DNA from: Caldithrix sp.
GTDB lineage: Bacteria > KSB1 > UBA2214 > DYKH01
Length of the DNA: 24,279 nt
Assembly: GCA_020722685.1 (NCBI GenBank)
Contig: DYKH01000014.1
Span: forward strand, 1 to 24,279
Direction of reading: 5' to 3'
Of the stretch, positions 2,281 to 24,279 are shown piece by piece (within the stretch, counting starts at the first letter, position 1; every line of letters begins with the position of its first letter). A program made the translations under genes and the position numbers. The notes beneath the pieces were generated by a model that searched no databases, was not told the origin of the DNA, and saw only the letters and a list, made by a program, of their open reading frames with translations.

Positions 2281-3102
2281 ATGGAGTTAAACGGCAGAAG
2301 ATATCAGCTTGGCTTTGGCGGCAGCTTAACGCCGGTGGTGCGTGACTTGTTGATAGCGAATCTCGCTATCTATGTGCTAAAGTGGTTCACGCCGGTAGAA
2401 AACCTTTTTGCCTTGCGCCCGCTGGACGTTACCAGCAGGTTCGCCATTTGGCAACTGGTGACCTACATGTTTCTCCACGGCGGTCTCTTTCATATTCTCT
2501 TCAACATGTTCACCCTGTGGATGTTTGGCTGCGAGGTGGAGAGCGCTCTGGGCTCGAAGCGCTTTTTTAGGTATTATATGATGACCGGCATCGGGGCCGG
2601 GCTATTCAACGTTCTCTTTGCCTGGAATTCGCCCATCCCCATCATTGGCGCTTCCGGAGCTTTGTACGGTGTTCTGGTCGCCTTCGCAGTTCTTTTCCCC
2701 GATCGGGTGATCACGCTTTTAATTTTTTTCATCCTCCCGGTTAGCTTGAAAGCCAAATACTTGGTGGCCATTTTTATCGGCATCTCCCTTTTCTCCAGCA
2801 TCCAAGGACAAGTCTTTGGGGTCTCGGACGGTATCGCTCATCTGGCGCATCTTGGAGGCGCCGTGGTTGGCTTGCTGCTGCTAAAGGGAAATGCTTTGGC
2901 GGGCATGGTGAGCAGGGAAATTCGCTACAGACAGATGCGGCGACGTACCGAGCAAGTGCGACGACGGGATCAGGAAATCCGCCGCAAACGGGAAGAGGTC
3001 GACCGAATTCTGGATCGCATCAACGAAGTGGGGTACGACGGCATCAGTGAAGCAGAAAAGGAATATCTCAAAAAGGCAAGTGAATTCTTGTCGGGTGAGT
3101 AA
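2281..3102 (+). CDS. Rhomboid family intramembrane serine protease
   Basis: This 273-residue membrane protein belongs to the rhomboid family, which cleaves transmembrane substrates within the bilayer. The oxyanion-site motif HILFN is at residues 71-75, the catalytic serine is S125 in GASGALYG, and the catalytic histidine is H190 in AHLGG. This gives the Ser-His dyad and conserved Asn in the expected order. About six hydrophobic segments cover residues 20-200. After residue 210 comes a strongly charged, Arg/Glu-rich helix and a short tail (to 273), an extension also seen in many FCB-group rhomboids; it would lie in the cytoplasm. The start at 2281 matches the family N-terminus, but the ribosome-binding site is weak. 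The substrate is unknown. The stop codon lies two bases before a TA-flanked 128-bp element. Confidence 0.9.
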   Translation: MELNGRRYQLGFGGSLTPVVRDLLIANLAIYVLKWFTPVENLFALRPLDVTSRFAIWQLVTYMFLHGGLFHILFNMFTLWMFGCEVESALGSKRFFRYYMMTGIGAGLFNVLFAWNSPIPIIGASGALYGVLVAFAVLFPDRVITLLIFFILPVSLKAKYLVAIFIGISLFSSIQGQVFGVSDGIAHLAHLGGAVVGLLLLKGNALAGMVSREIRYRQMRRRTEQVRRRDQEIRRKREEVDRILDRINEVGYDGISEAEKEYLKKASEFLSGE

Positions 3103-3104
3103 TA

Positions 3105-3232
3105 TACTCGTTAAGGGTCGCTTTTTCATGTCATGCCTGTGAATACAGGCATCTCCTAACCACCTGTTCACAAGCAGATTCCTGCATGCGCAGGAATAAC
3201 AAGATGGATGAAATTTCTACCCTCAACGAGTA
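3105..3232 (+). mobile_element. 128-bp MITE-like element, copy 1
   Basis: This is a non-coding element with terminal inverted repeats of about 14 bp: it opens TACTCGTTAAGGGT and closes with the complement of TACTCGTTGAGGGT. It is flanked by TA on each side (3103-3104, 3233-3234). It contains two GC-rich palindromes in opposite orientation (3131-3156 and 3176-3201). Copies at 14033-14160 and 22586-22713 are each also exactly 128 bp and flanked by TA. A TA target duplication is known for IS630/Tc1-mariner-type transposases, so mobilisation by such an enzyme in trans is a reasonable inference. No transposase is in the window. This copy lies two bases after the rhomboid stop codon. Confidence 0.8.
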
Positions 3233-3275
3233 TAGTTCACTCACAGGTGGATTAAAAACTTGTACAGGCATGAAT

Positions 3276-3341
3276 GGAGATCCCGGCATTCGCCGGAATG
3301 ACATTGTGGCGGTTGTCATGCCTGCGGAAGCAGGCACCTCC
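3276..3341. repeat. Two additional palindromic repeat units outside the element
   Basis: Two hairpin units, 3276-3303 (GGAGATCCCGGC..GCCGGAATGACA) and 3316-3341 (TCATGCCTGCGG..GCAGGCACCTCC), have the same design as the two palindromes inside the 128-bp element. That design is a TCATnCC arm, a short GC-rich stem, and a GGnATCTCC arm. They are in opposite orientation to each other. A short GGTGGA/TCCACC pair brackets the region. Similar small palindromes are spread through many bacterial genomes as REP-like repeats. Here they show that the building block exists independently of the transposable unit. They lie between the rhomboid and amidase genes. Confidence 0.6.
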
Positions 3342-13748: not shown

Positions 13749-14032
13749 TCCGGCGAACGTCTGGCGGCTTCCCCAACAATCACGGCTTGTAGAGTACGGC
13801 AAAAAGTAGAAAGCCAGCGCTTACTTTGCCAAAAGACCGCACCTTGCCACTGGAGGAGGATGCAGCCCGGAAATTGTGCGGAGGCAACGCAGCCCCGGAG
13901 AAAACTGCAGAGCGCTGCAAATGACCACGCTGCGAGAGAGCCAGGCAAAATGGGCGCTCGACCGTACACCTGTTCGACTCATCTCAATTGGCCTTTTCGA
14001 CAGTGTCTTCAAGCTCGTTCCTTAGCAAACTA
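13749..14032. other. Intergenic region without recognised gene
   Basis: I see no supported gene here. A stem of nine pairs with a 2-nt bulge can form at 13798-13830 (GGCAAA.. with TACTTTGCC) after the deacetylase stop; no T-run follows, so it is at most a weak terminator. An ATG at 13860 has GGAGGAGG directly before it. Its 60-codon frame runs into the mobile element and has no protein-like pattern. The promoter of the following operon may lie here, cut off from its gene by the element at 14033-14160. Confidence 0.4.
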
Positions 14033-14160
14033 TACTCGTTAAGGGTCGCTTTTTCATGTCATGCCTGTGAAGACAGGCATCTCCTAACCACCTGTTCACA
14101 AGGAGATTCCTGCATGCTCAGGAGTGACAAGATGGATGAAATTTCTACCCTCAACGAGTA
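14033..14160 (+). mobile_element. 128-bp MITE-like element, copy 2
   Basis: This copy has the same orientation as copy 1, is nearly identical to it along its whole length, and is exactly 128 bp with TA on both sides (14031-14032, 14161-14162). Differences are single bases, e.g. in the internal palindromes. It ends 43 bp before the start codon of the PdxJ-like gene, so it separates that operon from the upstream sequence or supplies part of its promoter. Confidence 0.85.
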
Positions 14161-14203
14161 TACCTAATCAAGCTTTATCATTCAAAACATGAAAGGGATG
14201 CTC

Positions 14204-18532: not shown

Positions 18533-18879
18533 CATACACTGACAAATCTTGACAACACGTGTCTAATGGAATTTGCCAAAAGGCAGAGGCGGCAAATTTT
18601 GGGTTTGCAACCTATATCACGTCTGCGGAACAAAAGCCTTGCTTGTTGGCAGGCACTTCTGTAAATTTCGCCCGCAAATTCAATCTTGAACTGTGATACA
18701 AAATGGCAGTGCGAGTTCTTTTCTCATGCCCTAAACAAGTTTGTTCAAATTGAGTGGAAAGCAGAAACCGGGTACCTGATCTTGACTCGGTTTTTTTATC
18801 ATAGGAATTCCCAATTCGCAACCTGCGGGTGGTTTCAATTCGCCGCTGGTTTGAGCCGACTACTTTCGTGGAAAACTTT
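18533..18879. other. Intergenic region without recognised gene
   Basis: The 347 bp hold no supported gene. The sequence is AT-richer than its neighbours. One terminator-like hairpin (18765-18797) is listed separately. A short palindrome GACAACACGTGTC lies near 18551. Translation in all frames gives no protein-like pattern. The promoter of the downstream lipoprotein gene presumably lies after the terminator. Confidence 0.4.
18765..18797 (+). terminator. Probable rho-independent terminator
   Basis: The arms AAACCGGGT (18765-18773) and ACTCGGTTT (18785-18793, one G-T pair) enclose an 11-nt loop and run straight into seven Ts (18791-18797). It would end transcription of the operon that begins with the PdxJ-like gene, although it lies about 230 bp after the last stop codon. 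Confidence 0.6.
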
Positions 18880-21514: not shown

Positions 21515-22486
21515 ATGAAAAAGCTGCTTACAACATTTGTGATACTGCTTTGCGGTGCCTTAGCTGTCGCCTCTGAGGGAGATGGCGGATACGCCGGCGC
21601 CTTCTTGCGCATGGGCATGGGGGCGCGCGCCAAAGCCTTAGGTGATGCTTTCTCGGCCATTCCAGAAGATGCGATCGCCGGTTTCTATAACCCGGCATTG
21701 CTGCCCCATCTCAAAAGTCGTCAGGCCTTGTTGTCCTTTGCCTTTTTGCCGCTGGATCGAAAGCTGGACTACATCGGCTATGCGCAATCCTTGCATCCCA
21801 AAGCTGAGGACGAAGCGGGCGGGCAGCCTCTGAATGCCGGATTCGCCTTGGCCTGGATTCATGCGGGCGTGAGCGATATCGATGGCCGCGATCTGAGCGG
21901 CAATCACATTGGCTCTTTCTCTAATTCGGAACACGCTTTTCAACTGTCATTTGCGATTAGTCCGGTAAAAATGTTTTCCTTTGGCATCACCGGGAAGGTG
22001 TTATACAATCGTTTCCCCAAGATCGCACAGGAAGAAGCGGCAGTTACCTCCCGTGGATTTGGCATGGACTTTGGCGCTTATCTCAACCCGCTTCGCAATC
22101 TGATGCTCGGTGTGGTGCTGCACGACAATATGTCCAAATACACCTGGAACACCGACAAGCTCTGGGAGCGCGGCACCAGCACCACCTATAGATTCCCCAA
22201 GGTGACTCGGGCAGCCATAGCCTATCGAATACCGCAGCAATGGCTGCTGGCCATTGCGGAAGTAGAAGACAGCAAAGAACAGAATCCGCGCTATCATTTT
22301 GGTGTCGAGGCCTCCTATTTAGAAATGGGCGCCTTGCGCTTTGGCTATGACGCCGGCGTGCCGACTTTTGGTGTGGGCTTTTTTAGCAAATTGTTTGGCC
22401 GCCACGCCGGACTGAATTATGCCTACATCACCGGCGATAATGGCCTGAGCGCCGATCATGTTTTTTCTTGGACGTTTGAGTTTTGA
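21515..22486 (+). CDS. PorV/PorQ family outer-membrane protein
   Basis: This 323-residue outer-membrane protein has a signal peptide (1-19). It starts with the family signature GAFLRMGMGARAKALGDAFSAI..DAIAGFYNPAL and continues as amphipathic strands, ending in an aromatic residue (..FSWTFEF), as barrel proteins do. In Bacteroidota, PorV helps carry cargo released from the type IX secretion translocon, so the neighbouring FlgD-domain propeller may be a client. That functional link is inference, because PorV-like proteins in KSB1-type bacteria are numerous and uncharacterised. It lies 21 bp after the propeller stop. A hairpin (ACATCCG/CGGGTGT, 22487-22508) directly follows its stop codon but has no T-run. 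Confidence 0.8.
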   Translation: MKKLLTTFVILLCGALAVASEGDGGYAGAFLRMGMGARAKALGDAFSAIPEDAIAGFYNPALLPHLKSRQALLSFAFLPLDRKLDYIGYAQSLHPKAEDEAGGQPLNAGFALAWIHAGVSDIDGRDLSGNHIGSFSNSEHAFQLSFAISPVKMFSFGITGKVLYNRFPKIAQEEAAVTSRGFGMDFGAYLNPLRNLMLGVVLHDNMSKYTWNTDKLWERGTSTTYRFPKVTRAAIAYRIPQQWLLAIAEVEDSKEQNPRYHFGVEASYLEMGALRFGYDAGVPTFGVGFFSKLFGRHAGLNYAYITGDNGLSADHVFSWTFEF

Positions 22487-22560
22487 ACATCCGTAAAAAA
22501 GCGGGTGTACTGCAAAGATGCCAATGTTCTTGCAGATGAAGTAAGAGAGAGGATTTGGAT

Positions 22561-22927
22561 ATGATTACACAAACTATAGATGCTATACTTGTTAAGGGTG
22601 AGAATTACACCCTTGTTGTCATTCCTGCGCATGCAGGAATCTCCTTACGATAAGGAAGTTAGGAGATGCCTGTATTCACAGGCATGACATGAAAAAGCGA
22701 CCTTTAACGAGTATATCTATGAGGACGGAGTTTTCCGGCCCCTTACAAACATAGAAATTCTCATTCCGAAAGGGCGGCCAATTAGGCTACAAGTCGAAGC
22801 TATTGACTCTCCGGAAGACTGCCTGACTTTGGCCACTCAAGTCTACGACGGTCTTTCAGAAGAGGAGATTAGGGAAATCGAGGCTATTGCCCTGAACCGA
22901 GAAGAATTCTTTGGAGATAGAAAATAG
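22561..22927 (+). pseudogene. DUF104 (AF2212-like) antitoxin gene interrupted by the 128-bp element
   Basis: The gene starts at ATG 22561 with GAGGA eight bases upstream and reads MITQTIDA. The 128-bp element then enters the codon after GCT. Translation continues into the element and stops at TAA 22651 after 30 residues. After the element the frame resumes: IYEDGVFRPL, a strand with ILIPKGRPIRLQVEAID, and a C-terminal helix ..LSEEEIREIEAIALNREEFF, stopping at TAG 22925-22927. Deleting the element and one TA rejoins GAT GCT ATC TAT GAG as D-A-I-Y-E, giving an intact AF2212-like antitoxin of about 79 residues. Such antitoxins partner VapC-type PIN toxins, and one follows 2 bp downstream. Confidence 0.85.
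22586..22713 (-). mobile_element. 128-bp MITE-like element, copy 3 (inside antitoxin gene)
   Basis: This copy is in the opposite orientation to copies 1 and 2 and is again exactly 128 bp. It is flanked by TA at 22584-22585 and 22714-22715. Half of it matches the other copies closely (the TACTCG end with the CGCTTTTTCATG segment and the ACAGGCAT palindrome). The other half differs in the spacer and inner flank, so it is a diverged subtype. The terminal repeats TACTTGTTAAGGGT and TACTCGTTAAAGGT remain. Because it sits in a recognisable reading frame, it proves the element ends and the TA duplication: removing 130 bp restores the codon frame of the host gene. Confidence 0.9.
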
Positions 22928-22929
22928 AC

Positions 22930-23343
22930 ATGGTCCCGACGTAAGCTATTTTGGATACCGACATTCTATCTCAGGTCATGCGAAAGCAACCATTAGTGCT
23001 TGCTCGGGCGCAAGAGTATTTGACGGTTCATCATCGATTTACGATCTCGATCATTACCCGGTATGAAATCTTGCGTGGATTGAAGGCAAAAGATGCCGCT
23101 GCGCAGCAGGTTACTTTTGATTTGTTTTGCTCGTCAAACCGGATTACTTCAATCACGGATGAGATCGTTGTACAGGCGGCCGAAATTGATGGGGATATGC
23201 ACAAACGTGGGGAATTGATTAACGATGCTGACATCTTGATTGCAGCTTCTGCTTTGGTTCACAAACTCGAGCTTATTACCAATAATGAGGGGCATTTGAG
23301 ACGAATCGCCGGTTTGCACATTAACGACTGGGTCCAAGTTTAA
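22930..23343 (+). pseudogene. VapC-type PIN toxin gene with in-frame stop at codon 5
   Basis: The expected start ATG 22930, 2 bp after the antitoxin stop, reads M-V-P-T-stop (TAA 22942-22944) and then continues in the same frame as AILDTDILSQVMRKQP to a normal end at 23343. The rest is a typical 130-residue PIN domain: first acidic pair in LDTDILS, a Glu in TRYEILRG, and NDADILIAA near the end, then a final LITNNEGHLRRI segment. Such proteins are Mg-dependent ribonuclease toxins. A rescue start at TTG 22951 would keep the first Asp but lose most of the first strand, and it has no ribosome-binding site. Together with the broken antitoxin, this points to an inactivated module. A sequencing error at one base is the alternative. 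Confidence 0.75.
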
Positions 23344-23389
23344 CTGTCGCTGCCCACTTTTTCACGATTTCACATAGGCCAAAGTGTCC

Positions 23390-24279
23390 ATGATTAAATT
23401 AAAAAATACTGCTCCAATCTTTATTCTGATTTTATTCCTCCACGGCTTTTCGCATGCCGCCGGAAAAACCGGATTGTCCTTCTTGAAAATCGGCGCTGGC
23501 TCCCGAGCCTCCGCTATGGGAGAAGCGTTTGTTGCCACGGCAGATGATGCCTCCGGCCTATTCTGGAATTCGGCAGGATCAGCTTTCATTAGTCAAAGAC
23601 AAGCGCACCTCACGCATACGGAATGGATTCAAGGCATAACGAATGAAGTCGTCGGTCTCGCTTTTCCAACCTCCATCGGCACCATTGGATTGGCTGCTGC
23701 TCTGAACAGCGTCGATGGCCTCGAACGGCGGGTGATCGCTTCAGCGGAGCCGTTGGGCACCATGTCTGCCCACGATTTTTTGTTCGGCCTGACCTTCGCG
23801 CGAAGGCTGAACGACCGCTTCGCCTTTGGACTTGCAGCAAAATACCTTTACGAAAAGATCTACACTGAGACTGCCAGCGGTGTGGCGGTGGATTTTGGAG
23901 TTCGTGGTCAAGCCTTGGTGCGGGATCTCTGGATTGGCGCTTCGGTGCAAAATCTCGGCGTCATGGATCAATTGGTCGAAGAGGAGATTGCTCTGCCCAC
24001 CACGGTTCGTCTCGGCGGCGCTTGGACGGTGCCGGCTGCCTTTTTGCATAACCAACTGCTGCTGGCAGCGGATTACGTGACGGTAGCGGATGATGACTCC
24101 TATTTTTGTATTGGCGGCGAATTTCGCCCGGTCTCGCAGTTATTCTTGCGCGCTGGCTTTCAGGGCGGGCATGATGACAGAGGCCTTAGCGCCGGATTGG
24201 GCCTCAAGCTGAACCGATGGATGGCAGACTATGCCTATGTTCCCTTTTCTTCGGACTTGGGCACAACGCAGCGAATTTC
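23390..24279 (+). CDS. PorV/PorQ family outer-membrane protein, 3' end outside window
   Basis: This is an open frame of 296 codons from ATG 23390 that runs off the window. The signal peptide spans residues 1-23 (hydrophobic APIFILILFLHGF, cleavage after SHA). The mature N-terminus, GKTGLSFLKIGAGSRASAMG followed by EAFVATADDASGLFWNSAG, is the PorV/PorQ signature, more canonical than in the copy at 21515. Barrel-type strands follow, with repeats such as FGLAAKYLYEKIY, DLWIGASVQNLG and LFLRAGFQGG. Family role: outer-membrane barrel proteins linked to type IX secretion or cell-surface assembly. The two paralogues in the window are separated by the dead toxin-antitoxin module. The ribosome-binding site is weak (AAAG). 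Confidence 0.82.
   Translation, partial: MIKLKNTAPIFILILFLHGFSHAAGKTGLSFLKIGAGSRASAMGEAFVATADDASGLFWNSAGSAFISQRQAHLTHTEWIQGITNEVVGLAFPTSIGTIGLAAALNSVDGLERRVIASAEPLGTMSAHDFLFGLTFARRLNDRFAFGLAAKYLYEKIYTETASGVAVDFGVRGQALVRDLWIGASVQNLGVMDQLVEEEIALPTTVRLGGAWTVPAAFLHNQLLLAADYVTVADDDSYFCIGGEFRPVSQLFLRAGFQGGHDDRGLSAGLGLKLNRWMADYAYVPFSSDLGTTQRI

Follow-up and report, generated by a model that had tools for sequence, protein, structure and literature searches.

Excerpts of two reviews already describe the decay of toxin-antitoxin modules through nonsense mutations and insertions (PMC7167474, PMC2654758), with copies of the type I hok-sok system covered in the latter. Part of a study on Haemophilus VapC1 reports that the first attempts at laboratory selection for loss of toxicity yielded mostly nonsense mutations (PMC4229260). 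Among small mobile elements, passages of a paper on RUP of Streptococcus pneumoniae describe a 107-bp sequence with terminal inverted repeats, a TA target and stops in all frames, for which mobilization by IS630/Tc1-mariner transposases was proposed (PMC2229807), and an extract of a further source gives TA ends, a length of 100-400 bp and stem-loops as general traits of miniature inverted-repeat transposable elements (MITEs; PMC5896051). Here, we analyze a 24,279-nt stretch of DNA from Caldithrix sp. (GenBank assembly GCA_020722685.1, contig DYKH01000014.1; hereafter the window), in which an AF2212-like antitoxin gene is interrupted by a MITE-like element and the adjacent gene for a VapC-type PIN toxin by a stop codon. 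This locus is very probably the remnant of a type II toxin-antitoxin module, an antitoxin followed by a PIN ribonuclease toxin, in which both genes are now pseudogenes.

The closest described systems are type II modules of the VapBC kind, which by Pfam share gene order and domain content with an intact relative pair that we found in a Phycisphaerales metagenome-assembled genome (MAG; locus L001). The same order and content recur in a Nostoc plasmid pair (L004) annotated as "antitoxin family protein" and "VapC family toxin". By sequence, the closest intact toxin relative (P0003) hits 11 distinct VapC-type sequences of solved structure, with 3zvk_A as the best, and one antitoxin relative (P0124) matches AF_2212 itself (2nwt_A, E 0.00038). 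Whereas the L001 and L004 pairs are intact and their genes overlap by 4 nt, both genes in the window are interrupted and lie two bases apart. The window pair can be likened to decaying chromosomal toxin-antitoxin modules, E. coli ccdO157 among them, from which it differs in having a different type of lesion in each gene and a MITE as the insert. The insert in turn resembles RUP in being short and TA-flanked, with terminal inverted repeats and a frame stop inside; unlike RUP and other TA-targeting MITEs, it is not assigned here to a named element, and a scan of 13 other open reading frames (ORFs), a subset of those in the window, revealed no transposase domain.

The locus is an ordinary, clear example of known toxin-antitoxin decay. 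What the literature searches did not turn up is a single small pair that bears two different kinds of lesion while both of its genes have intact relatives: among the titles and abstract openings listed on MITEs or insertions and antitoxins, and on degenerate or truncated pairs, we found no MITE in an antitoxin beside a nonsense-bearing toxin, and the literature search did not return "AF2212-like" together with VapC and antitoxin. The locus is a fossil addiction module from a little-studied lineage, and comparison with relatives could reveal the order of its two lesions, which would test the rule that a toxin must be lost before its antitoxin. At present it amounts to a single locus whose outcome is ordinary.

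Both genes of the module are interrupted

The antitoxin frame begins at an ATG at 22561 and, at the boundary between codons 8 and 9, runs into the element, where it meets a stop at 22651-22653. The insertion adds 130 bases and would therefore shift the frame even without this stop. On the 3' side of the element the frame resumes and ends with TAG at 22925-22927. This right half matches Pfam family PF01954 (AF2212-like, which we take to be the family formerly named DUF104) at 21.9 bits, barely above the cut-off of 21.6, while its relatives P0124 and P0123 score 32.6 and 31.7 bits. The left piece has a single, chance-like sub-threshold Pfam match, and an NCBIfam scan of five antitoxins returned no match for any of them. 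Within the frame of the 3' part, the sole ATG, GTG or TTG is a TTG at 22829, which leaves 32 residues and has most of the domain already behind it. No uninterrupted AF2212-like antitoxin ORF is left, and the original prediction, which had a DUF104-type antitoxin split after codon 8 by a TA-flanked 128-bp element, is borne out in its coordinates and by the Pfam match.

The toxin ATG at 22930 lies two bases past the antitoxin stop, with no overlap of the genes. Codon 5 is TAA (22942-22944), beyond which the frame runs open to its own stop at 23341-23343 and matches PF01850 (PIN) at 50.8 bits against a cut-off of 23.6 (E 3e-13); frame walk and domain match thus agree with the earlier description of a nonsense codon in an otherwise normal PIN-domain frame. 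The toxin does not reach the NCBIfam VapC equivalog cut-off (best 68.7 bits versus 140, NF047863), and the intact P0003 (78.6 bits) and the L001 toxin (79.4) likewise fall below it. With TAA at codon 5 there is no uninterrupted VapC toxin ORF, and neither full product is predicted from the locus sequence.

Table 1. Features of the interrupted module and copies of the element in the window
Feature	Position	Strand	Basis
AF2212-like antitoxin, 5' end	22561..22583	+	Frame walk; P0123 and P0124 (uninterrupted) share N-terminal residues
MITE-like element, 132 bp (128 bp between two TA borders), with imperfect terminal inverted repeats	22584..22715	+	Two similar copies elsewhere in the window; DNA fold z -6.84
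Antitoxin, 3' part	22716..22927	+	PF01954 match; start-codon walk; alignment with P0123-P0128
First codons of the toxin, from ATG to TAA at codon 5	22930..22944	+	Sequence, frame walk
VapC-type PIN toxin, rest of the frame, open until its terminal stop	22945..23343	+	PF01850 PIN, E 3e-13; NCBIfam VapC models below cut-off
Second element copy, 26 bp upstream of pdxJ ORF	14031..14162	-	Nucleotide similarity to antitoxin copy
Third element copy, directly 3' of a rhomboid-family ORF's stop codon	3103..3234	-	Nucleotide similarity to antitoxin copy

Intact relatives of both genes

For the toxin we considered the best 120 of 1223 relatives. The closest among these, P0003, is 77% identical, intact, and has a sense codon at position 5. 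Start positions were compared in 118 relatives, leaving out P0004 and P0089, which lack the motif pattern used: in 116 of them the start lies 3-9 residues ahead of the first PIN motif, upstream of the equivalent of TTG 22951, and two (P0121 and P0122) are listed as beginning at that TTG. A start at this TTG, which would have spoken against a disabled toxin had it been the norm, is therefore the exception among relatives.

Six relatives were found for the antitoxin (P0123-P0128). P0123 and P0124 are uninterrupted where the element sits in the window and have almost the same residues on either side; P0126-P0128 are also uninterrupted there and less similar, and P0125 lacks the region. The expectation that some relatives would carry an uninterrupted antitoxin and a sense codon at toxin position 5 therefore holds at the protein level. 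P0125 is listed at 58 residues, lacks the N-terminal part and has no Pfam match; it could be a further damaged copy or a start-calling error.

The intact L001 pair occupies 2436-2678 (antitoxin) and 2675-3088 (toxin), and the Nostoc pair 1268-1504 and 1501-1911. A scan of genome contigs gave two loci, 61% and 38% identical, and toxin relatives at E 1e-20 or better were present in 2 of 199 genomes of the L001 phylum, one of them L001's own. All 193 plasmid records fell below 60% identity (best Nostoc, 57.8%), and neither the toxin tail nor P0124 had a relative in viral contigs. A Hydrothermarchaeota MAG contains a more distant relative of the toxin (L002, 5499-6280), which overlaps by 4 nt with a different-looking upstream ORF.

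The element is present in three copies

The inverted ends, TA borders and strong folding of the element are traits of a MITE. It is short, carries no transposase gene, for which it would be too small, and occurs three times within 24 kb. Its TA borders read as a target-site duplication, and the empty site is seen at the protein level only, in P0123 and P0124. The other two copies lie in the opposite orientation to the antitoxin copy and resemble it at 87% (134 nt) and 86% (132 nt). Between themselves, the copies at 3103 and 14031 differ at 5 of 132 positions, compared with 18 and 19 against the antitoxin copy; of the 132 positions, private differences number 16 in the antitoxin copy and 2 and 3 in the others. 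Over the outer 26 positions, the inverted ends match at 21 (3103), 21 (14031) and 18 (antitoxin copy). A 15-base end motif, allowing up to 3 mismatches, has seven matches in the window, namely the six ends of the three copies and one stray at 18729, against a mean of 0.19 in shuffles; together with the DNA fold z of -6.84 this excludes chance as the origin of the element.

The TA target and the size class suggest that an IS630/Tc1-mariner-type transposase may mobilize the element in trans. Rfam at gathering thresholds returned nothing, blastn found no match to the element in plasmids and phages, and a 22-mer and a 19-mer from it had no exact match in viral contigs. The inner palindrome of the element (22617-22641) resembles a stretch in the Phycisphaerales MAG that holds L001 (25 bases, 96%; L003). 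Elsewhere in the window, the copy at 14031-14162 may carry or displace a leader or promoter of pdxJ, whose ORF runs from 14189, and short palindromic repeats, judged partly by eye, lie beyond the 3103-3234 copy at about 3278-3340.

Order of the two lesions

To read the order of decay we compared how far each remnant departs from its relatives. The tail of the toxin was aligned with 119 relatives (the best 120 minus P0004). Here the window toxin departs at 3 of 40 columns conserved at 95% or more and at 6 of 55 conserved at 90% or more, in both cases the highest count among the 120 sequences; P0003 departs at 0 of 40 and 2 of 54. Of the differences between the two proteins, 17 are derived in the window, 11 in P0003, and 3 are tied. 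The 95% columns received 3 of the 17 window-derived changes and none of the 11 from P0003, where random missense changes would place 30.5%; the probability of none in 11 is 0.018. The antitoxin right half, by contrast, departs at none of 13 columns invariant in six relatives (P0125 excluded), and has 6 window-only changes compared with 4 in P0123 and 4 in P0124. With 3 departures in 40 conserved columns, against 0 in 13 for the antitoxin, the toxin would have been relaxed for longer, which favors loss of the toxin first and a recent insertion.

We therefore consider it somewhat more likely than not, on these sequence comparisons, that the toxin was lost before the element inserted, and the same comparisons suggest that the insertion into the antitoxin is recent. 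The toxin would have lost its function first; the antitoxin would thereby have become dispensable; and a recent hop of the element would then have interrupted it. The original prediction had held the same order, or a joint loss of both genes, to be probable from the premise that a live toxin without its antitoxin is lethal. Conservation leans toward that order, in small numbers, whereas the lethality rule is plausible but does not force it, because the insertion could lower translation of the toxin too.

The 16 private differences of the antitoxin copy might be read as the mark of an old insertion, a reading that we rejected by neutral simulation of the antitoxin right half. In 5000 runs at that divergence, started as a simplification from the window's own sequence, a mean of 17.1 residues changed, six or fewer changed in 0.06% of runs and a stop arose in 57.5%, compared with the 6 window-only changes and no stop in the actual remnant. 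Six or fewer changes occurred in 20% of runs at half that rate and in 84% at a quarter of it. The mismatch at the full divergence indicates that many of the private differences probably predate the insertion, in which case the copy would belong to another subfamily.

Several points weigh against the toxin having been lost first. At an 80% cut the toxin departs at 7 of 69 columns, tied with two other sequences; its 5 private residues are tied with six; and its mean log frequency is only the fourth-lowest. Finding at most 3 of the 17 changes on the 95% columns has a probability of 0.19, which is no different from full relaxation and gives no date. The antitoxin right half, for its part, departs at 1 of 32 columns invariant in three relatives. 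The order rests on few substitutions and on comparison sets of unequal size, and P0003 and P0123/P0124 may come from different loci or organisms. The toxin stop itself hangs on a single codon, where a sequencing error is possible.

Alternative explanations

If insertion could quiet the toxin, the element might have come first, disarming the whole module at once, with the toxin stop fixed later by drift. In the intact L001 and L004 pairs the antitoxin stop and toxin start overlap by 4 nt, and in the window 276 nt separate the end of antitoxin translation (22651-22653) from the toxin ATG, a distance at which any translational coupling would have been lost. The element also places hairpins in the shared leader or transcript (RNA fold of 22561-22990, z -3.69), with a terminator-like consensus match at 22593-22615 (three found versus a shuffle mean of 1.0). 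However, the window genes lie two bases apart without overlap, so that coupling is only suggested by the layout, and the toxin departs at strongly conserved columns while the antitoxin remnant does not depart at its invariant ones. We regard an element-first order as unlikely on this balance, and it is to the same degree doubtful that a single MITE hop safely removed the antitoxin and uncoupled toxin translation, with the toxin stop following; if true, MITEs would be a route for genomes to shed addiction modules without dying.

Two further explanations would spare the toxin. Should its TAA be a sequencing or assembly error, only the antitoxin would be interrupted, and the rest of the toxin frame is indeed open and keeps the acidic PIN motifs; yet the frame departs at conserved columns as well, and a 90-residue protein identical to the toxin tail (P0004, on a 9753-bp contig) begins only at the equivalent of TTG 23071. 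Such a late start fits a broken toxin front, though it could also come from the contig ending there. We consider an error at this codon improbable. It is still harder to credit that the toxin would still be made from TTG 22951, with its N-terminus shortened, and be tolerated either for its weakness or through the protection of the cell by another antitoxin. That TTG opens a frame of 130 residues, and P0121 and P0122 are listed with the same start; against this, the other 116 relatives begin 3-9 residues further upstream, we saw by eye no Shine-Dalgarno-like stretch within the 20 bases preceding the TTG, the first strand of the PIN fold would be shortened, and the conserved columns of the toxin again depart.

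Neighborhood and origin of the module

The DUF4921 protein of the bacterium places it near candidate division KSB1: among the best 120 of 3333 relatives, the two closest are 89% and 81% identical, and the first taxon names met further down, at about 70% identity, are "bacterium" and "candidate division KSB1 bacterium". GC content over the module region (22200-23600) is 44-48%, compared with 50-61% upstream and 53-56% downstream. This dip between the flanks fits a horizontal origin, and the AT-richer module is thus probably an acquired cassette. It sits between two ORFs resembling outer-membrane PorV-type proteins: the one at 21515-22486 has sub-threshold Pfam matches only (TraF_2, UPF0164, PorV), and the one at 23384-24277 was judged by eye.
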